Source of the DNA: Parasphingopyxis marina
GTDB taxonomy: Bacteria; Pseudomonadota; Alphaproteobacteria; Sphingomonadales; Sphingomonadaceae
Reading direction: 5' to 3'
Assembly: GCF_014237875.1 (NCBI RefSeq)
Contig: NZ_JACJVJ010000001.1
Span: 1,042,501-1,106,500 of the forward strand
Length of the DNA stretch: 64,000 bases
Both the position numbers and the translations under genes were made by a program. Shown here piece after piece: positions 40,526 to 54,025 of the stretch (its first letter is position 1; each line of letters starts with the position of its first letter). Under the pieces are notes generated by a model. That model worked only from the letters and a program-made list of their open reading frames with translations. It was not told the origin of the DNA and made no database searches.

Positions 40526-41920
40526 CTACCCGGCCAGCCCCATGCGGGCCAGCCGCGGTGTGTCTTCCAATATCGTCGATTCCTCGCCCGTCCCGACGCT
40601 GACCGGTCCATGCGGCGTGAGCAGCGCGTTGATGTGCAATAGCGTCCGCCCGCCCGCGTTCCAGGCGTTCAGCTTGGCGGCGTCGATCGCTGCATCGGGG
40701 GGGTCGACGGGCATGATCTGGCTTGCCGTGAACAGGGCATCGGCGGCGTTCAGGATATCGGCCTCGGTGCAATCGTCGGCCGCCTCGGCGATCGCGGCGA
40801 GGCTCGCAGGGCCGTCGGCGAGCCGGTCGATGATCGCATGGGCGGCGAGATTGTCGAACCGCAGCGTTCCGGCGGGCGTTTTCGCAGTGAACTCGGCCTC
40901 GTCCGCGTCAACCCGTGCCATCCAGTACCCGTCCAGCCGCCGTGCATCGATCTCGCCCTTGTCGATCCTGTCGAAGGGCGGTTTCGCATAGATGTCGGTG
41001 CGGAATTGCGAGTGGAGATCGAGGTCGATGGTCAGTTCGCGGGTCTGCGGATCGGCGATCGATGCCAGCGCCTCGCGCTGTGCCTTTTTGAGGTAGAAAT
41101 CCTCACGCAACCGGACCGCCATGGCCGATCGGACGAAGCGAAGCCCTTGGGCCTCCGCCGCGCCGACGACGTCGGCGGACCAGAGCGGCTGCCAATGGGC
41201 GTTCAGATATTCGTGCGGGAAATAATCGTCGGGCAGCCGGGTCCGCAACTCGTCCATCCATTCGAAATGGCGTTCGCCGATGGTCGGCATGCCGGCCTGG
41301 CTCAGCGCGCGCGCTTCCTCGTATGCGCTTTCGAAACGCTCGGTGGGCGTGCCTTGCTTCGAACGGGAGAGCACCAGCAGCAGTTTCTGCATGGCCAGCC
41401 GCTGTGTCCATCCGGGCAGGCAGTTATAGCCGATCGTCGCGACGCCGCCGGCGGAAAGGTTGCGCGCGATCAGCGTCAGCACGTCGCGCCGATTCTCCGG
41501 GCTCACCCAGCTGAGCACGCCCTGGACCGCGATATAGTCGGCCGCGACGGGCTCATGCGCCAGCGTATCGTGGAAGGTCGCGCAATGCAGTTCGACATTG
41601 GCGATGCCGAGTTCGTTCGCGATTGCGCGACCGCGCTCGATATGGGCGGGCATGGCGTCGATGCCGACGAAGCAGCTTTCGGGATAGGCCGCGGCGATGA
41701 AGATCAGGCCAAGCCCGTCGCCGCAGCCGATATCCAGCATGGTAAAGGGGCGGTGCGCTTTGCCGCCCGTGCCGCGGGGCGGCGCTATGCCGTCCCGCAG
41801 CAGCAGGTCATCGATCCAGGACGGCGCGAAGGCAGCGTGGTAGGCGCTCGGATAGAGCGAGTCCCCGATATAGCCTTCGATGTCCGGCCGCCCCGTTCCG
41901 TCAACGTGAGAACGGGCCAA
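40526..41920 (-). CDS. SAM-dependent methyltransferase with C-terminal regulatory domain
   Basis: A 464-residue protein. The class I SAM-binding fold is clear: TMLDIGCGDGLGLIFIAAAYPES, GIDAMPAHIERG, and NVELHCATFHDTLAHEP. The second half looks like the methyltransferase regulatory domain (MethyTransf_Reg type) found in standalone bacterial methyltransferases. The start is TTG, four bases after the stop of precursor P1, suggesting coupling. By location it could methylate exported precursor peptides before secretion; that is inference. It is the last gene of the peptide-export locus. Confidence 0.82.
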   Translation of the reverse strand: MARSHVDGTGRPDIEGYIGDSLYPSAYHAAFAPSWIDDLLLRDGIAPPRGTGGKAHRPFTMLDIGCGDGLGLIFIAAAYPESCFVGIDAMPAHIERGRAIANELGIANVELHCATFHDTLAHEPVAADYIAVQGVLSWVSPENRRDVLTLIARNLSAGGVATIGYNCLPGWTQRLAMQKLLLVLSRSKQGTPTERFESAYEEARALSQAGMPTIGERHFEWMDELRTRLPDDYFPHEYLNAHWQPLWSADVVGAAEAQGLRFVRSAMAVRLREDFYLKKAQREALASIADPQTRELTIDLDLHSQFRTDIYAKPPFDRIDKGEIDARRLDGYWMARVDADEAEFTAKTPAGTLRFDNLAAHAIIDRLADGPASLAAIAEAADDCTEADILNAADALFTASQIMPVDPPDAAIDAAKLNAWNAGGRTLLHINALLTPHGPVSVGTGEESTILEDTPRLARMGLAG

Positions 41921-41924
41921 GCGC

Positions 41925-42146
41925 TTAGCGTTTCGGCGTCGTCTTGGCGATCGGCGGGCTGACCTTTTGCGTCAGGCTGTCGATCTTATAGTCCAGGTCT
42001 GCCGCCGCGTTGAGCGTCGGCCCGTTGCTGGTGAGGAGCCGGAGATAGACTTCGCCGCCGGCAACCCCGGCGAGCTCCGCCTCTTCGAGTTCGACGGTGC
42101 CGGCCTTGCTCACTTTCTCGCCCGCGCTTTTCTTTGCCTTGCTCAT
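41925..42146 (-). CDS. Double-glycine precursor peptide P1
   Basis: A 73-residue precursor. The leader VSKAGTVELEEAELAGVAGG ends in Gly-Gly, the cleavage site for the C39 domain of the exporter at 45584. The 42-residue core starts EVYLRLLTSNGPTLNAAAD and has no Cys. The core aligns with P2's (YLRL/YLKI, G-x-[TS]-L), so the two are paralogues. Leader type A (K-x-G-[TA]-V-E-L) is shared with P2, P4 and P6. It lies directly before the methyltransferase. Confidence 0.82.
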   Translation of the reverse strand: MSKAKKSAGEKVSKAGTVELEEAELAGVAGGEVYLRLLTSNGPTLNAAADLDYKIDSLTQKVSPPIAKTTPKR

Positions 42147-42181
42147 CAGGATCGCTCCTCGTTGGAAATGGAGGCCGGGTC

Positions 42182-42409
42182 TCAGAGTTTGAGGGTCTTG
42201 GACGAAAGCGCTGTCTTGTACGCCTGATCCTCAATCTTCAGCGTCCGTTCGCCGATCGAATTGGCGTTGAATTCCAGCGATTCGCCTTTGATGTCACCGA
42301 TTTTGAGATAGCCGATGCCACCCTGGACGTCGCCGAGTTCGTTTTCGTCGAGTTCGACGGCGCCGGATTTGGTTACCTTGCCTTCGGTCTTCTTCGTTTC
42401 CTTGGTCAT
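42182..42409 (-). CDS. Double-glycine precursor peptide P2 (Hcp-like core)
   Basis: A 75-residue precursor with leader VTKSGAVELDENELGDVQGG and a 44-residue core. The core begins IGYLKIGDIKGESLEFNANS, strongly recalling the N-terminal strand of Hcp tube proteins of type VI secretion (consensus about YLKIdgIKGES). The resemblance then fades. It has no Cys. GGAG lies nine bases before the ATG. A hairpin and a CRP-like site lie upstream, so P2-P1-methyltransferase may form their own transcript. Confidence 0.85.
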   Translation of the reverse strand: MTKETKKTEGKVTKSGAVELDENELGDVQGGIGYLKIGDIKGESLEFNANSIGERTLKIEDQAYKTALSSKTLKL

Positions 42410-43087: not shown

Positions 43088-45583
43088 TCATTCCTCCATC
43101 AGCTGGCGGCGCGCGAGTGCGGCGAAGGCGCCGTCCGCGGCCATGAGGTCTTCATAACTGCCCTGCTCGGCGATCTTTCCCTTTTCGAGCACGCAGATGC
43201 GGTCCGCATTGACGATCGTCGAGAGACGGTGGGCGATGGTGATCCGGGTTGCGTCCATATTGTCGAGCGTTTCCGCGACGAGCGCCTGGCTCTGATTGTC
43301 GAGCGCGCTGGTCGCCTCGTCGAAGAACAGGATTTTCGGTCGGGCGACGAGCGACCGGGCGATCAGGATGCGCTGGCGCTGGCCGCCCGAAAGCACGGCC
43401 GCACCCTCGGTGATCGGCGTGTGGATGCCCATCGGAAAGCTTTCGAGATCGCGCGCGAGCCCCGCCTGGGCGGCGGCGGCGAGGCATTGCTCGAGGCCCG
43501 CATCGTGCGAACCGCGGATGTTGTCGATGATCGAACCGGCGAAGAGCGAGCTCGACTGGAGGACGACGCCGGCCTGGGCGCGGAGCAGCGAGAGATCGAG
43601 GTCCGCAAGCTCCTTGCCGTCGTAATAGATCGAGCCCTGGCGCGGGGTTTCGAAGCCAAGCAGCAGCCGCAGCAGGGTCGATTTGCCCGATCCCGATGCG
43701 CCGACGACCGCGAAATGCGCGCCGGCGGGGATGTCGAGCGAAACGCCGGAGAGTATGGGAGGCAGGCTCTCGTCATAGCCGAAACTGATATCGCGCACTT
43801 CGATGGCGCCGCTGAGATCGCCCGGATCCTTGCGGCTGCGGGCGATTTCCGGTTCGGCGGTCAGGATCGGTAAGGCGCGGTCGATTTGCGGCTGGGCGGC
43901 ATAGAGTTCGATCAATTGCGCCGAGAGCGATACAAAGGCGCCCTGAAAGGAACCGAAAGCGACGAGGAAGGCGATAAAACTGCCGGGCGCCATCTCGCCT
44001 TGCGCGAAGGTCGCGACGCCGGCGAACAGGGCGACTTGCGTCAACACCTGCCAGCTGTCCGAAATCGCGCTCGAATAGCCGGTGATCACGCCGGCGCGAT
44101 ATTCGAGCACGCGCTCCTCGCCATAGGAAGCGGCCCAGCGCGACAGCGCGCGGCGTTCGGCGGCGGCGCTCCGCAATTTCGCGACCGCGCCGATCATCTC
44201 GTAGCCCTGTTCGGCCAGCCGCCCGTCGATGGCGAAAGCCTCGCGGATCAGCGGCATCTGCAGCAGGCGCGTCACCGCGACGATGCCGATATACACCGAA
44301 ACCAGCGCCAGGGAGATCAGCGCCAACCCGATCCCGTAATAGGCGAGCACCCCGAAATAGAAGATCGAGAGTATCGCGGAGAGCCCGGCGGAAAGCGCGA
44401 TGGAAAGGATCAGCGCGCGAATGCCGTCGATGCCGGCAATACGCTGGTTGAGATCGCCCGCGCTATATTCGCGGAAGAAGGAGGCGGGCAGGCGCAGCAC
44501 CCGGTCGAATATGCCGGTCGAAAGCCGCGCGCTCGTCTTTCCCTGGATACGGCTCGTCGCCATGCCGCGTAGCGTCGACAGCAGGTAGGTGATCAGGCCG
44601 GCAAAGAGCAGGGCGAGGCCGACCGCGACGAGCAAACCCGCATCGCCCGAGGGCGCGATATCGTTGAGCAGCCATCCGGTGGCGAGCGGCACGATCGCGC
44701 CGAGAATCGCCATCAGTGTCGCGGCAATGCCGATGGTCTTCAACTCGTCGCCATTGCGAGCGAGCACATGCCGGGCGAGCGACCAGAAGCCGGTAATGCC
44801 GTCGGGCAGCGGAGCGGATATGGCATAGCCGGTGCGGTCGAACCGCGTCGCGCCGGGATCGAGCGGCGCGCCCGAGGCAAGCCGGTAGCCGCCGCTTTTC
44901 CAGATGGCGGAAACGAGCGCGCCGCCTTCCCCCTCGCGCAGGACAAGCGGCCCCTGATCGTGGAGCTGCCATTTGCCGGTGAGCGTGAGCTTGCGCACCG
45001 AAAGCCCGTAGCGATGGGCGAGCCGGGGGGTGTCGGCAAAGCCGAAGGCCTTGTCCCCGGGCCGGGTATCGGGAACGGGCACCTTCAGCGCGCGCGCGCA
45101 ATCGCGCAGAATATCGGCGAGGCTTGGTGGCGGCGGTTCGTCCGTTCGCGATTCCGCATCGACGGTACGGAGCCGGGCCAGTGCCGCGGCGTCGCGTTCC
45201 GCGGCTTGCGCGTCGAGGGCGGAATAGAGCGCGGCGTTGAAGGCTTGCGGCGTGGCGCTTTCGCCCGGGACAGTGCCGATAATCTCCCGCCAGCGGGCGA
45301 AGAGCCGATTTTCCTTCCCTGTATCGAGCGGCGCTACGGTAAGCGCGCCGCGCGCAACGAGAAGGAAGACGGCGTCCTCCGGTGCCGCCGGGAAAACCGG
45401 ATCGCCGGCTTCGACGATGCCGAGAAAAGACTGGCGGGCAGGGGTTCTGAGAAAAAGTTCGGCGACGCCTTCGGCGATGAGGAAGGCGCGACCGTCGCGC
45501 GCGCATTCGATCGGCGGCCCGGCGGCAAATTCCTGCCTGTCATCGCCGGCTTCGGGGCCGAACAGGATCGCGCGGCCGGCCAT
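43088..45583 (-). CDS. NHLM-type peptide-export ABC transporter, permease/ATPase (no C39 domain)
   Basis: An 831-residue inner membrane protein. About 280 N-terminal residues form a cytoplasmic domain of unknown role. Then come about six membrane helices (ELKTIGIAATLMAILGAIVPLATGW onward) and an ATPase with Walker A GASGSGKST, signature LSGGQRQRI and Walker B ILFFDEATSAL. Size and layout match the second transporter (ABC2) of NHLM bacteriocin systems. It directly abuts ABC1, and the two probably form a heterodimer that moves leader peptides across the inner membrane. Confidence 0.9.
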   Translation of the reverse strand: MAGRAILFGPEAGDDRQEFAAGPPIECARDGRAFLIAEGVAELFLRTPARQSFLGIVEAGDPVFPAAPEDAVFLLVARGALTVAPLDTGKENRLFARWREIIGTVPGESATPQAFNAALYSALDAQAAERDAAALARLRTVDAESRTDEPPPPSLADILRDCARALKVPVPDTRPGDKAFGFADTPRLAHRYGLSVRKLTLTGKWQLHDQGPLVLREGEGGALVSAIWKSGGYRLASGAPLDPGATRFDRTGYAISAPLPDGITGFWSLARHVLARNGDELKTIGIAATLMAILGAIVPLATGWLLNDIAPSGDAGLLVAVGLALLFAGLITYLLSTLRGMATSRIQGKTSARLSTGIFDRVLRLPASFFREYSAGDLNQRIAGIDGIRALILSIALSAGLSAILSIFYFGVLAYYGIGLALISLALVSVYIGIVAVTRLLQMPLIREAFAIDGRLAEQGYEMIGAVAKLRSAAAERRALSRWAASYGEERVLEYRAGVITGYSSAISDSWQVLTQVALFAGVATFAQGEMAPGSFIAFLVAFGSFQGAFVSLSAQLIELYAAQPQIDRALPILTAEPEIARSRKDPGDLSGAIEVRDISFGYDESLPPILSGVSLDIPAGAHFAVVGASGSGKSTLLRLLLGFETPRQGSIYYDGKELADLDLSLLRAQAGVVLQSSSLFAGSIIDNIRGSHDAGLEQCLAAAAQAGLARDLESFPMGIHTPITEGAAVLSGGQRQRILIARSLVARPKILFFDEATSALDNQSQALVAETLDNMDATRITIAHRLSTIVNADRICVLEKGKIAEQGSYEDLMAADGAFAALARRQLMEE

Positions 45584-47719
45584 CTATGCCTCCACCAGCC
45601 GCGCATAGGCGCCGGTGCCGCCGAGGAGCGCGTCATGGGTGCCGCGTTCGGCGATTCTGCCCTGGTCGAGCATGATGATCTCGTCGCAGTCGCGGATCGT
45701 GGAGAGGCGGTGGGCGATAACGATGCAGGTGATTCCGCGCCGCCGGATCGCCTCCATCACATGATGTTCGGTGACGGGGTCGAGCGCGCTCGTCGCTTCG
45801 TCCAGGATCAGGATCGAGGGATTGGTGGCGAGCGCGCGGGCGATCTCCATCCGCTGGCGCTCGCCGCCCGAAATATTGGTCGCGCCCGGCGCGAGTTCGG
45901 CGTCATAGCCGCCGGGAAGAGCGAGGATGCGCTCGTGGATCGCGGCGTCCTTCGCGGCGGCGATGATATCCTCTTCGGGGATCGTCGCGTCCCAGAGCGT
46001 GAGGTTGTCGCGCACCGTGCCCGCGAACAACACGACCTCCTGCCGTACATAGGAAAGCCGCGCCGCAAGCACCGTGCGCGGCCATTCGCGGCGCGCCCGC
46101 CCGTCGATCAGCACGTCGCCCGATTGCAGTTCGACGAGCCCACCGATCATCTTGCCGACCGTCGACTTGCCCGATCCCGATGCGCCGACCAGCGCCACCC
46201 GCTGCCCCGGCGATACGTCTATCGTCAGCCCGTCGATCAGCGGCGGATCGAGCGGGTTATAGCCGAAGCTCGCGGCGTCGAGCTTCAGCGCCCCGCGCGG
46301 CACCGCGTCGATCGGTCGCGCGCCGCTTTCGTCGAACACCGGATCGGCCTTCTGGTCCAGCGTATCGTCGAGCCGACCCAGAAAGGTGCGCACTTGCTGC
46401 AGTTCAGCGCCGAACGAGGCAAGCGCCGTCACCGGCCCCGAAAAGCTCATCGCCAGCGCCTGGAAGGCGATGAGTTCGCCCAGGGTGAATGCTCCCCGCA
46501 TCACCAGATAGCCACCGCCCACCAGCGTCGTCAGCACGATCAGCGTGGAGATGAGCCCGGGCAGCGGGGCGGTCCAGGCGCGTACCGCAGCGGCCTCCTG
46601 CATGCCGTTCACCGCGGTCGCCTGCAATCCCGTCCAGCGCCCGAAGAGCATCGTTTCTCCGCCGCTCGCCTTGTAGGTCTCGATATCCTTCAGCCCCGCG
46701 ATCCGCGCGCCCATCATCTTGCCCTGGTCGATGGACACCTTGCGGTATTTCTCCGAGATTACCCGCGCGGTGTAGACCAGCACCAGCGCGTTGAGGCTGG
46801 TGAGCAGCAGGATGACGAGGGTCAGCGGGATACTGAAGAACAAGAGCACGATCAGGTAGAAAACGGCGAGCAGCAGGTTGATCGCCGCCTGGATCATCTG
46901 GCCGGAAAGCAGGCTCACCAGGCCTTCGTTGAGGCGCACCCGGTCCGCGATCTCGCCGGTAAAGCGTTGCTCGAAAAAGCCGATCGGCAGGCGCAGCATG
47001 TGATCGAGCAGCTGGTAGCCGGTCCGCCCGCGCATCACAGCGCCCAGCCGGGTCAGCGCGATTTCCTGCAGGCTGACCAGCCCGAAGCGCAGCAGGCCGG
47101 TTATCGTCATCCCGATCAGGAGCGGCCACAGCCAGCTGTCGAGCGAGCGGACGAGCACATAATCGACGAAGATCTGGTTGAAGAAGGGCAGGGCGATGCC
47201 GGGTACCACCAGCGCCAGGCTGGCGAGGAAGACGAACAGCAGGCCGAGCTTATAGTCTTCCATCCGGGCCGCCAGCGATTCCACGATAGAGGGCCGGCTG
47301 TCGCCGGTTTCGAACGCATCGGTCGGCACGAAGGAGAGGACCACCCCGGTAAAGCTGCGCGAGAATTCCTCCATCGGCTCGCTGCGATGGCCCGAGGCGG
47401 GGTCGTTGAGGAAGACCTTGCCGTCCTTCATTCCTTCGACGACCAGGAAATGGTTGAAATTGACGAAGGCGATCATCGGAAAGCCGATATCGGGCAGCGT
47501 TTCCGGTTCTGCCTTCAGCCCCTTGGCTTCCAGCCCGAAGCTGCGCGCGGCTTTCAGGATGTTGGAGGCCTTGGCGCCGTCGCGCGAAATGCCGCACATC
47601 CCGCGCAATTCCTCCAGAGGTACGAACCGGTCATAACCGCCGAGGATCATCGCCAGCGCGGCCGCCCCGCACTCCGCCGCCTCCATCTGGAGGACCGTGG
47701 GCGTGCGAAACACCGTCAC
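45584..47719 (-). CDS. Peptidase-containing ABC exporter (C39 domain), NHLM ABC1 type
   Basis: A 711-residue bifunctional exporter. The N-terminal C39 peptidase has its catalytic residues in place: Gln11 and Cys17 in VLQMEAAECGAAAL, His90 in FNHFLVVEG and Asp106 in NDPASG. A six-helix membrane domain follows, then an ATPase (GASGSGKST, NISGGERQRMEIA, LILDEATSAL). It should cut the ten double-glycine leaders of this locus and export the cores. Start is GTG overlapping the HlyD stop; the ABC2 gene follows immediately. Confidence 0.93.
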   Translation of the reverse strand: MTVFRTPTVLQMEAAECGAAALAMILGGYDRFVPLEELRGMCGISRDGAKASNILKAARSFGLEAKGLKAEPETLPDIGFPMIAFVNFNHFLVVEGMKDGKVFLNDPASGHRSEPMEEFSRSFTGVVLSFVPTDAFETGDSRPSIVESLAARMEDYKLGLLFVFLASLALVVPGIALPFFNQIFVDYVLVRSLDSWLWPLLIGMTITGLLRFGLVSLQEIALTRLGAVMRGRTGYQLLDHMLRLPIGFFEQRFTGEIADRVRLNEGLVSLLSGQMIQAAINLLLAVFYLIVLLFFSIPLTLVILLLTSLNALVLVYTARVISEKYRKVSIDQGKMMGARIAGLKDIETYKASGGETMLFGRWTGLQATAVNGMQEAAAVRAWTAPLPGLISTLIVLTTLVGGGYLVMRGAFTLGELIAFQALAMSFSGPVTALASFGAELQQVRTFLGRLDDTLDQKADPVFDESGARPIDAVPRGALKLDAASFGYNPLDPPLIDGLTIDVSPGQRVALVGASGSGKSTVGKMIGGLVELQSGDVLIDGRARREWPRTVLAARLSYVRQEVVLFAGTVRDNLTLWDATIPEEDIIAAAKDAAIHERILALPGGYDAELAPGATNISGGERQRMEIARALATNPSILILDEATSALDPVTEHHVMEAIRRRGITCIVIAHRLSTIRDCDEIIMLDQGRIAERGTHDALLGGTGAYARLVEA

Positions 47720-48990
47720 TCGGTCACGCGTTCGCCGCTGCCCGCAAGCCCGGGAAAGAGCACCGCGATGAACGGGCGGCGCTCCAGGATCACATTCGCT
47801 TCCAGCATCGTTCCGCGGGTGATCGCCCAGGCGGGGCCGTCCGAGGACGACCAGAGGAACTGGCCGCTCTGTTCCGCCCGGTGCAGCCGGACGCGAACCT
47901 CGATCGGCGCGCCCTCGACCGACAGCTCGTCGACCAGCCGGTCGTTCTGCAGCACCCGGCGCATCGCCTCGCGGCTCGCCGGGAAGACCGCGGTCGAAAC
48001 AACCTCGCCATGGATATGGCCGTATATCTCGCGCTCGGCGGTGGTCGGAATGATCTCGACCGTCATGCCGGGGGCGATGCGCTTGCCGGTCGCCGGCCGG
48101 GCATAGAGCACGGCCTCATAGCTGTCGGCGCTCTCGGCCCCGCTGTTCCGGCTGTCGATCGTCGCGACGGTTTCGCCGGCGGCGATCACATCGCCGGCAT
48201 TGGCCTGTATTTCGAGAACGTCGCCGCGCTGGGGCGCGCGCAGCAGCACCTCGTCATCGGTCTGGGCACGCAATTGCGCCAGTTCGCGGCGGCGCTGGGC
48301 GACCAGCTGGCTTTCGCCGAGCCGTTCCTCGCCGCGCTCGTTGCGGCGCTGGGCCGTCGTCACCCCCAGCTGCATCCGTTCCTGCTCCAGCCGGCGCAGC
48401 TCTGCGCGCAGCTCGTCGCGCGAAGCGATGATGCTCGCCAGCTCCTCCTCCGTCGCGGCATTCTGTTCGACGAGCCCGCGCATATTGGCGACGGTTTCGT
48501 CGCGCGTTTCCAGAAGGCGGCGGACTTCGGCGGTGCGGGACCGCAGCGAGGCGAGCATCGCGCGCTCGGCCGCGCTCAATCCCGCATCGCCCGTTCGATA
48601 GGTGCTTTCGGCGGCGGCAGCCTGCGCCATCGCATCGCGCAGGGCAGCCTCCGCCGCGCGAATTTCGCGTTCGCGGCTGCGGCGGGAGAGTCGCGCGACG
48701 ACATCGCCGGCCTCCACCGTATCGCCGGGGCTGACGAGAATTTCCTCGACCCGCCCTTCATATTGCGCGGAAACTTCGGCCAGTCCCTCCGCGCTGATCA
48801 GGATACCGCGCGCTTCCACCTGTACCGGCACCCGGGCAGTGAACCCCCAGACGAGCGCGAACAAAATGACGGCGCCAACAATGGCGAGGAATATCCAGTT
48901 GGCGGGGCGGACGAGCTGGAGCGGCTGGTCGAGCCGATCCGGGCTCGCCATGCTGTCGATCGCTTCCTGCCTGAAAATCTGTCTGGCCAT
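47716..48990 (-). CDS. HlyD-family periplasmic adaptor (NHLM secretion protein)
   Basis: A 424-residue membrane fusion protein. One N-terminal membrane helix around residues 30-52 (WIFLAIVGAVILFALVWGF), a lipoyl half (YEGRVEEILVSPGDTVEAGD), long coiled coils to about residue 240, the second lipoyl half (RGDVLEIQANAGDVIAAGE) and a C-terminal beta domain. It links the ABC exporters to the NodT/TolC-type channel at 52514. It overlaps ABC1 in a GTGA arrangement. Confidence 0.9.
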   Translation of the reverse strand: MARQIFRQEAIDSMASPDRLDQPLQLVRPANWIFLAIVGAVILFALVWGFTARVPVQVEARGILISAEGLAEVSAQYEGRVEEILVSPGDTVEAGDVVARLSRRSREREIRAAEAALRDAMAQAAAAESTYRTGDAGLSAAERAMLASLRSRTAEVRRLLETRDETVANMRGLVEQNAATEEELASIIASRDELRAELRRLEQERMQLGVTTAQRRNERGEERLGESQLVAQRRRELAQLRAQTDDEVLLRAPQRGDVLEIQANAGDVIAAGETVATIDSRNSGAESADSYEAVLYARPATGKRIAPGMTVEIIPTTAEREIYGHIHGEVVSTAVFPASREAMRRVLQNDRLVDELSVEGAPIEVRVRLHRAEQSGQFLWSSSDGPAWAITRGTMLEANVILERRPFIAVLFPGLAGSGERVTE

Positions 48991-49061: not shown

Positions 49062-50156
49062 TCAGCTACGCCGGAGCACATTTGTCAAGCAATGGAGCCC
49101 GCCCAAATTTTCCGCGAGCTTCTGCGCCTCGCCGATCATTCGCACTTCGAAGCCGAAACCTTCCCAGATTTCGCGGTTCTGGCGGTCGGTGATTTCGAGC
49201 TCGGGCCAGTTGTCATGGCCATAGGCGGGAAGCCAGACGATGTCCGGTTCGCGCTGGACGAGCGCATTGTTGGAGGAAGCGTAATACCAGGTGCGCCGCC
49301 GCTTCTTGGGATCGTCCATATAGATCATCGGCAGCGGGTTGCGGGTGACGGCGAAACCCCGTGCTTCCAGATCTGCGGCGATGGCATTGAAGCGGTTCGC
49401 AAGGCAAAGCGGGTGCGGCGGCAGCCCAAGCATCTCTGCCGCCATCGCCGGATCGCCGACCAAAATCCGTTCGCCGCCGCCTGCGCCTTTTCCGGCAAGC
49501 GTCAGGAACATATCGATATGGAAAACCGGCTGCCGGGTGCCTTCTTTCGCGCGATAATGGAAAATCTCCCGCCATTCTTCCTCTCCGGCATGGGCGGTGC
49601 GGAAGGTTTCGGACGGGGCGTCGTCGGCCGAACCGATCGGCACGATTTCGCGGCGATCGCCCTCCAAATCGCGCAGCGCCGTTTCGAACAATGCCGCGCC
49701 GTCATCGCCAAGGGCCGTCAGCGTATCGACCCCGACGAAGAGATGGCTTTCCCCGACAAGGATGTTGCCGCCTTCGAAGGCGACCGGCGAGGGCGCGGAA
49801 GCGAGCTCCGTCTTTTCCGCCAGCGTGGCGGCGGCGCGGAGATCGTCGCGGCGTTCCAGTTCGGGTGTGGTGAGCAGCGCCGGCGCGCCATTGGCTGCCG
49901 CCGCGATTAGCGGATCGCGCGCCCAGGGCGTGATGCTGATGTCCGGAATTTCGACGATAGCGAGGCGGGCCGGGTCGCAGGGCCAGCGCGCGATATGCGG
50001 CTGCGCGCCGGGTTCGGCGGCGACGGTGATCGCCGCATCGGCAGGCAGGCTGGCCACCAGCGCGCCATAGATCGCTGCAAAATGCTCGGCTTCATATTCG
50101 GGGGCGAACAGCAGCAGGTGGCGGATCGGTCCGGCTGCACTGCATAATAGATGCAC
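49062..50156 (-). CDS. Peptidyl-arginine-deiminase/agmatine-deiminase-like enzyme
   Basis: A 364-residue deiminase of the guanidino-modifying superfamily. Substrate loop TPWARDPL near residue 77, EGGNILVG near 128, His213-Asp in VFHIDMF and the nucleophilic Cys356 in GGLHCLTNVLRR form a complete catalytic set. It has no signal peptide. It sits between precursor genes and HlyD in the same direction with gaps near 70 bases. That location suggests it converts arginine to citrulline in the precursor peptides before export, but it could be an unrelated agmatine deiminase. Start is GTG. Confidence 0.8.
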   Translation of the reverse strand: MHLLCSAAGPIRHLLLFAPEYEAEHFAAIYGALVASLPADAAITVAAEPGAQPHIARWPCDPARLAIVEIPDISITPWARDPLIAAAANGAPALLTTPELERRDDLRAAATLAEKTELASAPSPVAFEGGNILVGESHLFVGVDTLTALGDDGAALFETALRDLEGDRREIVPIGSADDAPSETFRTAHAGEEEWREIFHYRAKEGTRQPVFHIDMFLTLAGKGAGGGERILVGDPAMAAEMLGLPPHPLCLANRFNAIAADLEARGFAVTRNPLPMIYMDDPKKRRRTWYYASSNNALVQREPDIVWLPAYGHDNWPELEITDRQNREIWEGFGFEVRMIGEAQKLAENLGGLHCLTNVLRRS

Positions 50157-50228: not shown

Positions 50229-50462
50229 CTATTTTTTCACAAAGACGATTTCCTCGGTCACCACGCTCTTGCCGGTTCCCGTGATGTTCGAACCTGTGGT
50301 GTGGCCCGAACTCAAAAACTCGTCGGCCGTGCCGTTCGCGCCACCGCCACTTACCTTGCTCGGCCAGGCATTCTCAAGGTTCCACTGCTTCACTTCGCCG
50401 CCAGTCACCTGATCGAGCTCCTTTTCGCCGAGCTCTTTGGCTTTCTTGTTTTTGGCCATCAT
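50229..50462 (-). CDS. Double-glycine precursor peptide P3 (tail-tube C-terminal-like core)
   Basis: A 77-residue precursor. Leader KAKELGEKELDQVTGG (type B) then a 55-residue core. The core EVKQWNLENAWPSKVSG recalls the W-N-x-x-N-A-W-P-x-K stretch of gp19-type phage and contractile-injection tube proteins, and its end SVVTEEIVFVKK resembles their VAIEEIVLAHE segment. Between these lies ADEFLSSGHTTGSNI, shared with P8. It has no Cys or Arg in the core. It is the last precursor before the deiminase. Confidence 0.85.
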   Translation of the reverse strand: MMAKNKKAKELGEKELDQVTGGEVKQWNLENAWPSKVSGGGANGTADEFLSSGHTTGSNITGTGKSVVTEEIVFVKK

Positions 50463-50539
50463 CTGTCTTTCTCACCTGGCCCGGGGCGGGATGCCTCGGG
50501 ATCGGGCTCTGCCGCCCGAATGGGACGGAAATCCGCCGC

Positions 50540-50553
50540 ATACCGGACGGTAT
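50540..50553. repeat. Inverted repeat ATACCG-GA-CGGTAT
   Basis: A perfect six-base inverted repeat just after the P4 stop, between P4 and P3. Could be a small RNA hairpin modulating the ratio of precursor mRNAs, or an operator. Confidence 0.35.
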
Positions 50554-50560
50554 CGGCTCG

Positions 50561-50800
50561 CTATTTGCGGATCTTCGTGCCCTTGGTCGCTCGCACGCCA
50601 AGCCTGTCGGTGGCGCGGATGCCGGCCCGGATTCCGACCTCGTCGGTGGTCAGTCGCGGCTTCACGCCCTCGATCTCGACCTTGAAGTTGTAGGCGCCGA
50701 ACAATTCTTCGGTGCCGCCGCCCTGTACTGAGTCCAGGTCTTTTTCCTCGAGCTCGACGGTGCCGGCCTTGGTCACTTTGTCGTCGGTTTTCTTGGTCAT
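50561..50800 (-). CDS. Double-glycine precursor peptide P4 (tail-tube N-terminal-like core, Arg repeats)
   Basis: A 79-residue precursor with type A leader VTKAGTVELEEKDLDSVQGG. The core GTEELFGAYNFKVEIEGV resembles the first strand of gp19-type tail tube proteins (about Y-N-F-x-V-E-I-D-G). The C-terminal part has an Arg repeat, EVGIRAGIRATDRLGVRATK, making it the most Arg-rich core and the best candidate substrate for the deiminase. No Cys. CGGAGA precedes the ATG. Confidence 0.85.
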   Translation of the reverse strand: MTKKTDDKVTKAGTVELEEKDLDSVQGGGTEELFGAYNFKVEIEGVKPRLTTDEVGIRAGIRATDRLGVRATKGTKIRK

Positions 50801-50837
50801 CGTGATTCTCCGTGAAGTTGGGGTTTGGTCCGAAGCC

Positions 50838-51014
50838 TTAATTCGTCTGATCGTCTGGGCTGGCGAACGTCTTGAGCTGGGTGTTGGTTTTCACCGTGGG
50901 GGTCGTAGATCGGGCCGCCTCTCGCGCCGCCTGTACGGCCGGCAGGAGAAGGGCGCCGCCCTTTACCTGATCGAGCTCCTGCTCACTTAATTCCTCTTTC
51001 TTCTGTTTCGCCAT
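50838..51014 (-). CDS. Double-glycine precursor peptide P5 (not in ORF track)
   Basis: A 58-residue precursor found by reading the minus strand between P4 and P6. Leader MAKQKKEELSEQELDQVKGG is type B. The core begins ALLLPAVQAAREAARSTT, which matches the 'LLLPAVQAAREAAR' segment of DUF1559-type pseudopilins of planctomycetes, and continues KTNTQLKTF. GGAAGGAA lies upstream of the ATG. A CRP-like palindrome sits about 65 bases before the start. No Cys. Confidence 0.85.
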   Translation of the reverse strand: MAKQKKEELSEQELDQVKGGALLLPAVQAAREAARSTTPTVKTNTQLKTFASPDDQTN

Positions 51015-51078
51015 GATAAAATTCCTTCCCCGATTCGTTGTCCTGTGAAGCGGTATCGGTGAAAACCCGGGGCGCCGC

Positions 51079-51094
51079 TGTGATCGCGATCACG
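51079..51094. promoter_or_regulatory. CRP-like palindrome TGTGATCGCGATCACG before P5
   Basis: A perfect GTGATCGCGATCAC palindrome matching TGTGA-N6-TCAC. It lies in the 99-base gap between P6 and P5, 65 bases before the P5 start. It could drive P5-P4-P3 and the genes beyond. Confidence 0.65.
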
Positions 51095-51113
51095 CGCTCG
51101 GGCTTTGCTGCCC

Positions 51114-51359
51114 TCAGTTCTTCTTACGCGCGCCACCTTTGCTCTGCTGGACATGGGTCAGCTCGTGCCCGTCCAGCGTAACCGCTTGATCGCTGCCATC
51201 CTGTTGCGGAAGGGGTGACGGGATGAAGGGCATCGGCGGACCGGGGATCTTCACCACTTCGCTAGCACCTGCCGAAACCTGATTGAGCGCGTTTTCGTCG
51301 AGCTCGACCGCGCCGGCCTTGGTCACCCGATCCTGCTTACCCTGCTTCATTTTCGTCAT
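51114..51359 (-). CDS. Double-glycine-type precursor peptide P6 (Gly-Ala site, HELTH motif)
   Basis: An 81-residue precursor with type A leader VTKAGAVELDENALNQVSAGA; the cut site is Gly-Ala, which C39 enzymes also accept. The core is proline-rich (KIPGPPMPFIPSPLPQQ) and ends VTLDGHELTHVQQSKGGARKK. HELTHVQQ-x-x-GG resembles the zinc-binding H-E-x-x-H segment of DUF4157 (eCIS core) proteins. The start at 51359 has GGAAGGA upstream; the tracked start adds 13 residues. No Cys. Confidence 0.83.
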   Translation of the reverse strand: MTKMKQGKQDRVTKAGAVELDENALNQVSAGASEVVKIPGPPMPFIPSPLPQQDGSDQAVTLDGHELTHVQQSKGGARKKN

Positions 51360-51422
51360 GTCCGGCTTCCTTCCGCAAACAGGGCGGCTCCTTCGCACCG
51401 GGCAAAGGGGCCGCCGATTGCC

Positions 51423-51584
51423 TTATTCGTCCTCGAAAACGCGCTCCATCTGCTTGGGCTCGGGCTTCTGGATGCCGCCGCGCAAGATGCCGAGGTCATC
51501 GCCCAGAAGGCCCTTGGTGCCCGCGCCCTGAACCTCGTCGAGATCCTTCTCGTTCAGCTCTTCGGTCCTTTTTTTCTCCGTCAT
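51423..51584 (-). CDS. Double-glycine-type precursor peptide P7 (Gly-Ala site)
   Basis: A 53-residue precursor, leader TEKKRTEELNEKDLDEVQGA (type B, Gly-Ala). The 32-residue acidic core GTKGLLGDDLGILRGGIQKP has no recognised resemblance; IQKP is shared with P8. The ATG at 51584 lies seven bases after AAGGGAG, better spaced than the ATG at 51590. No Cys. Confidence 0.78.
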   Translation of the reverse strand: MTEKKRTEELNEKDLDEVQGAGTKGLLGDDLGILRGGIQKPEPKQMERVFEDE

Positions 51585-51689
51585 CTTCATTCTCCCTTGA
51601 TGGTGAAACACAGTGCGAACCGATCAGGGGCCGCCCGGAACGTTTCCGGGGCAGGCCGTAATTTTCGTGTGCCGTCTTTTGCGAGCCGC

Positions 51690-51899
51690 TTATTCGGCTT
51701 TGACGTTGTTGGTGCCGTGGCCCGAACTCAAAATATTCGATCCCGTCGTGTGGCCCGAACTCAGGAAACCGTCCGCCGTGCGAACCGAGCCATCGCCGGA
51801 TTTCGTGGCTGCCGGCTTCTGGATTTCCATGTTCCCGCCGCCCTGCACGTCATCGAGTTCGGCATCCTTCAGTTCTTCGGTCTTTTTCTTGTCCGTCAT
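51690..51899 (-). CDS. Double-glycine precursor peptide P8
   Basis: A 69-residue precursor with type B leader KKTEELKDAELDDVQGG. The core GNMEIQKPAATKSGDGSVR is followed by TADGFLSSGHTTGSNILSSGHG, in which LSSGH occurs twice and which is shared with P3 (ADEFLSSGHTTGSNI). The shared segment points to duplication or exchange between precursor genes. AGGAGA precedes the ATG. No Cys. Confidence 0.83.
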   Translation of the reverse strand: MTDKKKTEELKDAELDDVQGGGNMEIQKPAATKSGDGSVRTADGFLSSGHTTGSNILSSGHGTNNVKAE

Positions 51900-51947
51900 T
51901 GTCTTTCTCCTGCCTATGGTTGGCGTGGCGCGGATTTCGCTTGCCGT

Positions 51948-52142
51948 TTAATATTTCACTTCTTCGGTAGGCCGATCGTCCGCATCGCCCGAAGTGCTCC
52001 AGCCCTTTCTGCCCGCCGGGCCGAAATCGCCGTCGACGACGAGAGTTTTTGTGGTCTGGATGTCGCCTGTGGTTTTGAGGCCGCCTTGGACGTCCTCCAG
52101 TTCGGCGTCGTTGAGTTCTTCGGCTTTGGTCTTGTCAGTCAT
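51948..52142 (-). CDS. Double-glycine precursor peptide P9 (peptidoglycan-binding-like motif)
   Basis: A 64-residue precursor with type B leader TKAEELNDAELEDVQGG. The core contains KTLVVDGDFGPAGRKGW, resembling the V-D-G-x-F-G-P-x-T-x-x-A motif of PG_binding_1 domains, but no full domain. The tracked ORF starts 44 residues too early; the ATG at 52142 has AGGAGA upstream. No Cys. Confidence 0.83.
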   Translation of the reverse strand: MTDKTKAEELNDAELEDVQGGLKTTGDIQTTKTLVVDGDFGPAGRKGWSTSGDADDRPTEEVKY

Positions 52143-52209
52143 GGTCAGTCTCCTGTTGGTGTTCAGTGTGCTTCGTCTCTTGTGTCCGGTTTTCGTGCTT
52201 TCGCCCGGC

Positions 52210-52443
52210 CTAAATGCCGCTGCCGCCGCCCGATGCGGCGGTCTTGCCGGCGGTTTTCGGCCCGACAATTCCATCGACGTCGAGATTCTTCTCGGTTTCG
52301 CCGATGAAACGGGCGCTGCCGCTCGTATGCTTGATTTTTTCGAAGTTGAGCGAGAAGCTCTCGACCGGCACGGAGTCTCCGCCGCCCTGGACGTCGTCCA
52401 GTTCGGTTTCGCTAAGCTGTTCCGTTTTGTGTTCTTTTCCCAT
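52210..52443 (-). CDS. Double-glycine precursor peptide P10 (peptidoglycan-binding-like motif)
   Basis: A 77-residue precursor, leader HKTEQLSETELDDVQGG (type B). The core GDSVPVESFSLNFEKIKHTS is followed by NLDVDGIVGPKTAGKTA, again like a PG_binding_1 fragment (V-D-G-I-x-G-P-K-T), ending Gly/Ser-rich. It is the first precursor after the NodT gene; AAAGGAGA precedes the ATG, and a CRP-like site lies 60 bases upstream. No Cys. Confidence 0.83.
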   Translation of the reverse strand: MGKEHKTEQLSETELDDVQGGGDSVPVESFSLNFEKIKHTSGSARFIGETEKNLDVDGIVGPKTAGKTAASGGGSGI

Positions 52444-52502: not shown

Positions 52503-52518
52503 TGTGATTGGCATCACT
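52503..52518. promoter_or_regulatory. CRP-like site TGTGATTGGCATCACT before P10
   Basis: Matches TGTGA-N6-TCACA except for the final base. It overlaps the NodT-gene stop and is 60 bases before the P10 start. TTATGCT just downstream on the minus strand could be a -10 element. It probably controls the whole precursor-exporter transcript. Confidence 0.6.
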
Positions 52519-54025
52519 GGTCCGCATTTTCCCGATTTCGCGCGGCCAGCGTGATTGCGGGATCTTCCTCCAGCCCGCCGCCGATGGCGAGATGCAGGTC
52601 GATCCGGTTGAACAGCCTCGCCCGGCGGGCGGAAAGAAAGGCGCTGCGGGCGTTGAGCGCGCGCTGCTGGCTTTCGAGCACATTGAAGAAGGATTCGATG
52701 CCCGCACGGTAGCGCAGGGTCGAGATTTCGGTTGCCTGTTCGGCGGCCTGGGCGGCCTGGCCGAAAGCGGTTTCCTGATTGGCGATGATTCCGTCGACGG
52801 CGAGCGCGGTTTCGACCTCGAACAGCGCCTGTAGCGCGGTCTCGGCATAGGCCTCTATCGCCTCGTTGCGCTCGCCCTCCCGGAATTCGAGCTGCGCGCG
52901 CAGCCGCCCGCCCTGGAAAATCGGCTGGAGCAGCCGCCCGGCGATCGACCAGACAAGGGTCAGCGGATCGAACAGGCCGGCGAAGGACGCCGCGGACGTG
53001 CCGGCCGATCCGGTAAGCGTGAGCGACGGCAGGAAAGAGGCTTCGGCGGCGTCGATACGAAAGCCCGCCGCCTCGATCCGGTGCCGCGCCGAACGGACAT
53101 CGGGCCGCCGGTCCAGAAGTCCGGCCGGAACGCCGGCGGGCGGCGGCGGCGGCACGTCGGGAAGCGAGGCCGCGAGCGTGTCGATGCCGTCTGGATAATC
53201 GCCGACGAGGATTTCGAGCCGCCGGATCAGGCGCTGGTAATCCTCGCGCCGCTGTTCCAGCCCCGCGCGCGCCGTCTGCTGGTCGGTGATCGCGAGCGCG
53301 GCAAGGCTCTGCGGCGTAACGCCGGCTTCGACACGCAGGTTCAATTGGCGGATCAGCTCGTCATAGGTGGCGAGTACCCGCGTCGAGAGTTCGACCTGCG
53401 CCTGGGCTTCGACGACGGCGAGATAGGTGCGCGCGGTTTCGGCGGCGATCAGCTGGCGCGTTGCCTGAAGGTCGGCGGCGCTTGCCCGGTATTCGGCGCG
53501 CGCGGCGGCGCTTTCGGACGAGATGCGCCCCCAGATATCGGCCTCCCAAGCGACATCGATACCAAGATCGAAACGGGCGGGGAGGGACGGCGCGCCCTCG
53601 ATGCCACGTTCCTCGGCGCCGAATGTCGCGCCGGCCTGCGGGTACAGGTCCGATTCCTCGATCCGGGCCGCGGCGCGCGCCTGTCGCAGCCGCTCGATCG
53701 CCTGGCCTATCGAAGGGTTTCCCGAAAGCGCGCGCTCGACGAAGCTTTCGAGCAGCGGATCGCCGAAGCTTTCCCACCAGCGCCCGTCAATCTCCACCGG
53801 TGCCGCGGAATCGGCGGAGGTGAATTCGGCCGGCACGGCATCCATGATCGCGGGCCGGCTCTCGGCGGTGCGCGGCGCGCAGGCCGCTACCGGTATCAGC
53901 AGCGCCACCGCGCCGCACAGCGCCGCGCGGCGTCGACCTGCCGGAAGAAGCCCGATCGGCACGGTCAGCGCCGGGGGGATGCGAAAGCGTTCATCGCCGC
54001 GCACGATATTGGGTTCCCGGGGCAA
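52514..54025 (-). CDS. NodT/TolC-type outer membrane channel lipoprotein
   Basis: A 503-residue outer membrane factor. A lipoprotein signal ends LLIPVAAC (lipobox). WWESFGDPLLESFVERAL and two long repeats of helical hairpins follow, e.g. IEESDLYPQAGATFG and IDAAEASFLPSLTLTG, the duplicated OEP motif. It provides the exit channel for the HlyD/ABC exporter. The start is uncertain: the tracked TTG at 54025 or the GTG at 53962, with no good ribosome site for either. The sulfatase gene ends 23 bases upstream. Confidence 0.88.
   Translation of the reverse strand: MPREPNIVRGDERFRIPPALTVPIGLLPAGRRRAALCGAVALLIPVAACAPRTAESRPAIMDAVPAEFTSADSAAPVEIDGRWWESFGDPLLESFVERALSGNPSIGQAIERLRQARAAARIEESDLYPQAGATFGAEERGIEGAPSLPARFDLGIDVAWEADIWGRISSESAAARAEYRASAADLQATRQLIAAETARTYLAVVEAQAQVELSTRVLATYDELIRQLNLRVEAGVTPQSLAALAITDQQTARAGLEQRREDYQRLIRRLEILVGDYPDGIDTLAASLPDVPPPPPAGVPAGLLDRRPDVRSARHRIEAAGFRIDAAEASFLPSLTLTGSAGTSAASFAGLFDPLTLVWSIAGRLLQPIFQGGRLRAQLEFREGERNEAIEAYAETALQALFEVETALAVDGIIANQETAFGQAAQAAEQATEISTLRYRAGIESFFNVLESQQRALNARSAFLSARRARLFNRIDLHLAIGGGLEEDPAITLAARNRENADQ

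Follow-up and report, generated by a model that had tools for sequence, protein, structure and literature searches.

A leader-bearing small precursor with a DUF4157-like HELTH segment, one of a family of putative export peptides whose cores appear to be built from borrowed segments

The small gene P6 of Parasphingopyxis marina probably encodes an export precursor of the leader type, with a core made from captured signature segments which would have been exchanged between paralogues. The HELTH segment of P6, which resembles the C-terminal end of the DUF4157 domain, is on sequence comparison one of many borrowed segments found behind one leader. The window referred to below is the whole 64,000 nucleotide stretch of DNA that was analyzed.

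The P6 precursor (51114..51359, minus strand) starts with an ATG at 51359, has a ribosome-binding site (GGAAGGAAG) just upstream and looks like a real small gene of 81 codons. It is composed of a double-glycine-type leader and a predicted core with the C-terminal end LDGHELTHVQQSKGGARKKN. The first-pass annotation had described a peptide of ~60 residues, a size which did not hold, as the precursor is 81 aa long and the core predicted to remain once the leader is removed measures 50 aa. The leader, residues 1-31 ending in QVSAG (51267..51359, minus strand), was delimited by leader alignment and by a genome search with leader profile A2, which recovered P6 at E 2e-6 (profile of 30 rows, P6 among them). 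Positions L20, L25 and G31 were invariant in the leader alignment. The cleavage position reads VSAG/A, with AG where the sister precursors have GG or GA; GG, GA or GS is the usual criterion for a leader of this type. Ten similar leader ORFs including P6 were observed in the window, eight at 50229-52443 and two at 41925-42409, flanking the exporter genes on both sides and sharing the pattern ExLxExELDxVxGG (AG at the cleavage position in P6). The leader profile search found 16 occurrences of the leader in the genome, some of the precursors lying away from the cluster.

The exporter genes, all on the minus strand, encode an NHLM-type exporter with a C39 peptidase domain (45584..47719; TIGR03796 917.4 bits, cut-off 853.3; PF03412), a second, TIGR03797-like ABC subunit scoring just under the TIGR03797 cut-off (43088..45583), a HlyD-family membrane fusion protein (47716..48990) and a TolC-like outer membrane factor named from its ORF sequence by inspection only (52514..54025). 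As both leader and exporter are present, established C39 transporter biology makes cleavage and export of the P6 core likely: the C39 domain would cut P6 after the leader (VSAG/ASEV) and the linear 50-aa core would be exported, the HlyD and TolC-like proteins probably taking part. The leader pattern, the C39 exporter with its HlyD partner and the many small precursors side by side all resemble double-glycine-leader peptides exported by C39 ABC transporters (class II bacteriocins, CTB family, NHLM export system), but here the cores consist of slices from conserved stretches of unrelated proteins and the P6 site is AG. No NCBIfam match to P6 was obtained for a nitrile-hydratase-like leader (NHLP family). 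Also in the neighborhood, a deiminase-like protein with the end GGLHCLTN (49062..50156, minus strand; PF04371 only E 0.23) adjoins precursors in two clusters, that of the window and that of locus L035 (3688-4809), and a methyltransferase with a MethyTransf_Reg domain (40526-41920) lies beside the two outlying precursors.

The HELTHVQQ-type motif noted at first reading is indeed present in P6 as DGHELTHVQQSKGG, with HELTHVQQ at 51144..51167 (minus strand). It lies within a slice, P6 residues 53-76 (51132..51203, minus strand), which in a profile search aligned with positions 55-78 of the eCIS core model PF13699, the C-terminal end of the domain. The comparison with PF13699 proposed in the first-pass annotation gave a match (E 0.0085) in which P6 itself, at 16.7 bits, fell short of the 22-bit cut-off. 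Three other precursors passed it with 22.9, 27.8 and 25.2 bits (segments LLGHELTHVQQQGG, LLAHELTHVQQQGG and LLGHELTHVGQQG, respectively); they come from clusters whose exporter is related to that of the window (75-76% identity). Two further peptides contain the shorter variants HELSHTVQQ and HELAHSVQQ, and a peptide with HELAHVVQ was found in another genome far from the exporter. The conservation of both His and the Glu, also proposed for checking, was confirmed: H-E-L-x-H-x-x-Q is invariant in all seven leader-bearing peptides, from five genomes, as are the L, L and G of the leader. Loss of HELTH from related precursors, which had been named as evidence against the motif, was therefore not observed. 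Codons of the segment differ synonymously among the peptides, indicating that the DUF4157 slice is maintained at the amino acid level.

When the P6 core was compared with an eCIS locus from Nostoc sp. UHCC 0926, its score was reached by none of 1000 shuffles, the DUF4157 protein being aligned over 25 residues. Profile-profile comparison of the seven peptides with seven DUF4157 domains from the same family gave a probability of 96.4 over 18 columns. By these comparisons the likeness of the HELTH segment to DUF4157 is greater than chance. P6 shares with the domain the C-terminal HELTHxxQQ segment, the residues preceding it and HExxH, but covers only 24 of its 79 positions, stands behind an export leader and is without an eCIS operon; the segment is fairly described by the earlier suggestion that it may mimic the domain. 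A source for the first half of the core (KIPGPPMPFIPSPLP) was searched for and none was found.

Full-length counterparts were sought in the same genomes. The P. marina genome contained no eCIS_core or gp19 match above cut-off, the best matches being the precursors themselves, and in three other genomes (G243, G309, G793) the sole eCIS_core match reported was a precursor, with no full eCIS_core protein. An eCIS_core match above cut-off was present in 45 of 397 family genomes, two precursor-bearing genomes included, and true eCIS_core proteins occur elsewhere in the family. No leader peptides were found in the eCIS loci taken from relatives, nor was a leader joined to a whole domain in the loci examined. 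P6 had no match in PDB, no convincing match in PHROGs, and its core gave no tblastn match to plasmids; NHLP clusters on plasmids of Azospirillum, Shinella, Bradyrhizobium and Methylobacterium had precursors that lack these modules. Weak P6 matches in L010 and L011, from a search of 249 same-family genomes, were discarded as chance because of stops in their frames, and DUF4157 genes on Nostoc C052 and Caballeronia plasmids were left out of the comparison since they lie outside eCIS loci.

The sister precursors of the window, all on the minus strand, carry segments resembling other proteins. The precursor at 50229..50459 contains the tail-tube (gp19) C-terminal segment WNLENAWPSK (PF06841 E 0.0072); the score of its core against the Nostoc tail tube was reached by none of 1000 shuffles, and a phage tail protein (9r9h) was matched at E 0.011. 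Its neighbor at 50561..50800 combines FGAYNFKVEIEGV, suggestive of the tail-tube N-terminus (p 0.025), with GIRA repeats, while the one at 50838..51014 contains the DUF1559 segment ALLLPAVQAAREAAR, 88% identical over 17 aa to a Singulisphaera DUF1559 protein. At 52210..52443 a single precursor has an Hcp-like LNFEKIK (p 0.06), an AAA-like FIGETEKNL (p 0.017) and VDGIVGP. The VVDGDFGP of 51948..52142 is peptidoglycan-binding-like by eye only and not significant, and the same applies to the outlying precursor at 42182..42409, recovered with the leader profile, whose YLKIGDIKGES resembles an Hcp N-terminus; the second outlying precursor (41925..42146) was likewise recovered by its leader. The precursor at 51423..51584 ends in MERVFEDE, a segment which recurs in L022 and L023, and that at 51690..51899 carries GDGSVR and SSGHTTG. 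SSGHTTG, MERVFEDE and HGSA recur (window 50229-50459 and 51690-51899; L023 2484-2684) and no source was found for them.

Against the Nostoc eCIS locus, eight cores reached scores unmatched by 1000 shuffles, five with DUF4157, two with the AAA ATPase (DSHDAYANLEVSHL, DSHDRYANIEVSYL) and one with the tail tube. Comparison with same-family eCIS loci added further AAA segments (IGETEKNL, LTTNFK) and a segment (QYNPE) of a tail protein called LysM-type by inspection; these matches are supporting and not proof, as ten shuffles per core were used and several scores were near the shuffle maximum. The sister slices share signature segments with the tail tube, AAA ATPase and LysM-type tail protein of eCIS, but unlike those proteins are only 10-30 residues long. 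Sisters with LLLPAVQxAREAAR..NNLKQIGLALHN, one of them elsewhere in the genome, likewise resemble Planctomycete DUF1559 proteins (PF07596) but lack the prepilin start and the remainder of the protein. A lone leader peptide at C1:698531 (L135 1032-1205) has a 36-aa core which in its entirety corresponds to a DUF1559 N-terminal segment. From end to end this core shares 69% identity with a Planctomycete DUF1559 protein (E 1e-5); the DUF1559 slice scored 32.6 bits against PF07596 (cut-off 23.3). The Hcp-like segments were weaker (p 0.005 and 0.06; PF05638 E 0.17). Module combinations vary by species: in the window FIGETEKNL is paired with an Hcp-like segment, and in relatives its partner is HELTH. 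Modules were recognized after inspection; reversed cores used as a control matched none of these families, and no source was found for about a third of 51 cores. For segments this short, each E-value is modest when taken alone, but in combination they are persuasive. Leader peptides at L143 915-1115 and L055 1399-1599 contain AGPGGGPHVKVFDG and VATGDVNGDG, FG-GAP/VCBS-repeat-like in look, with no database match.

As first noted, P6 has no room for a protease domain. Because only 24 of the 79 positions are covered, no third zinc ligand is evident after HELTH (and none is conserved among relatives) and the AlphaFold model is disordered (pLDDT 62, pTM 0.16), a working protease is by sequence and model excluded in practice. 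DUF4157 is itself an eCIS marker with HExxH whose role is unknown (PMC8213781), and growth inhibition by one effector was reported to be independent of metalloprotease motifs (PMC11297309). Metal binding by P6 is possible. That binding zinc or copper through HExxH is the function of a minimal metallopeptide would fit the invariant His and Glu residues and the metal binding known for small HExxH peptides (a reference cited in PMC8213781), but the missing ligand and the disordered model argue against it, and the motifs of the sister cores are of quite another kind, unconnected with metal (tail-tube, AAA ATPase, LysM-tail, DUF1559 and Hcp-like), which makes zinc chemistry unlikely as a common purpose. 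We regard this explanation as decidedly improbable.

The captured-segment reading of P6, in which cores of the lineage would have been put together from short signature segments (tail tube, eCIS AAA ATPase, LysM-type tail protein, DUF1559, Hcp-like) taken up by recombination, has to account for the sub-threshold P6 score, the AG site and the half of the core without a source; the Hcp, peptidoglycan-binding and tube N-terminus assignments in the sisters are weak as well. The low score and the shortness of the segments would also be expected if the likenesses were accidental or convergent, but relatives pass the cut-off, and the shuffles of eight cores and the reversed-core control yielded nothing comparable, so that chance is strongly disfavored and very improbable. 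Selection might instead act on the leader alone, with inert downstream slices swapped as fragments recombine; the great diversity of the cores, some matching nothing, and the rare and patchy clusters (exporter in 5/397 family genomes) are consistent with such raw material without function, yet HEL.H..Q is invariant in seven peptides despite synonymous codon differences and modules recur across genera, and we consider this unlikely. Less probable again is that the deiminase-like and methyltransferase genes make an ordinary modified product for which sequence likeness is secondary. The deiminase-like gene adjoining precursors in two clusters and the Arg-rich GIRA cores point this way, and citrullination of those sister cores is conceivable, but the P6 core contains a single Arg and the matches to conserved proteins are left unexplained.

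With captured segments as the preferred reading, the very different sister motifs suggest a more general shared purpose, either the mimicking of conserved surfaces or the uptake of any segments that happened to be at hand. As to function, our leading guess, possible but doubtful, is an extracellular role in which the cores would imitate conserved surfaces on the machinery of other bacteria. A more elaborate and quite unlikely version is an exported library of mimics, in which cores imitating segments of the contractile injection machine and of a Planctomycete-type surface protein would jam or mislead the machinery of neighbors, the repertoire being renewed by recombining segments behind the common leader. 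Leader-peptide clusters as such are already known; a literature search returned no report of cores put together from the signature segments of several conserved but unrelated proteins. Should they prove functional, P6 and its relatives would represent new exported peptides arising by gene-fragment capture, or molecular mimicry between bacteria.
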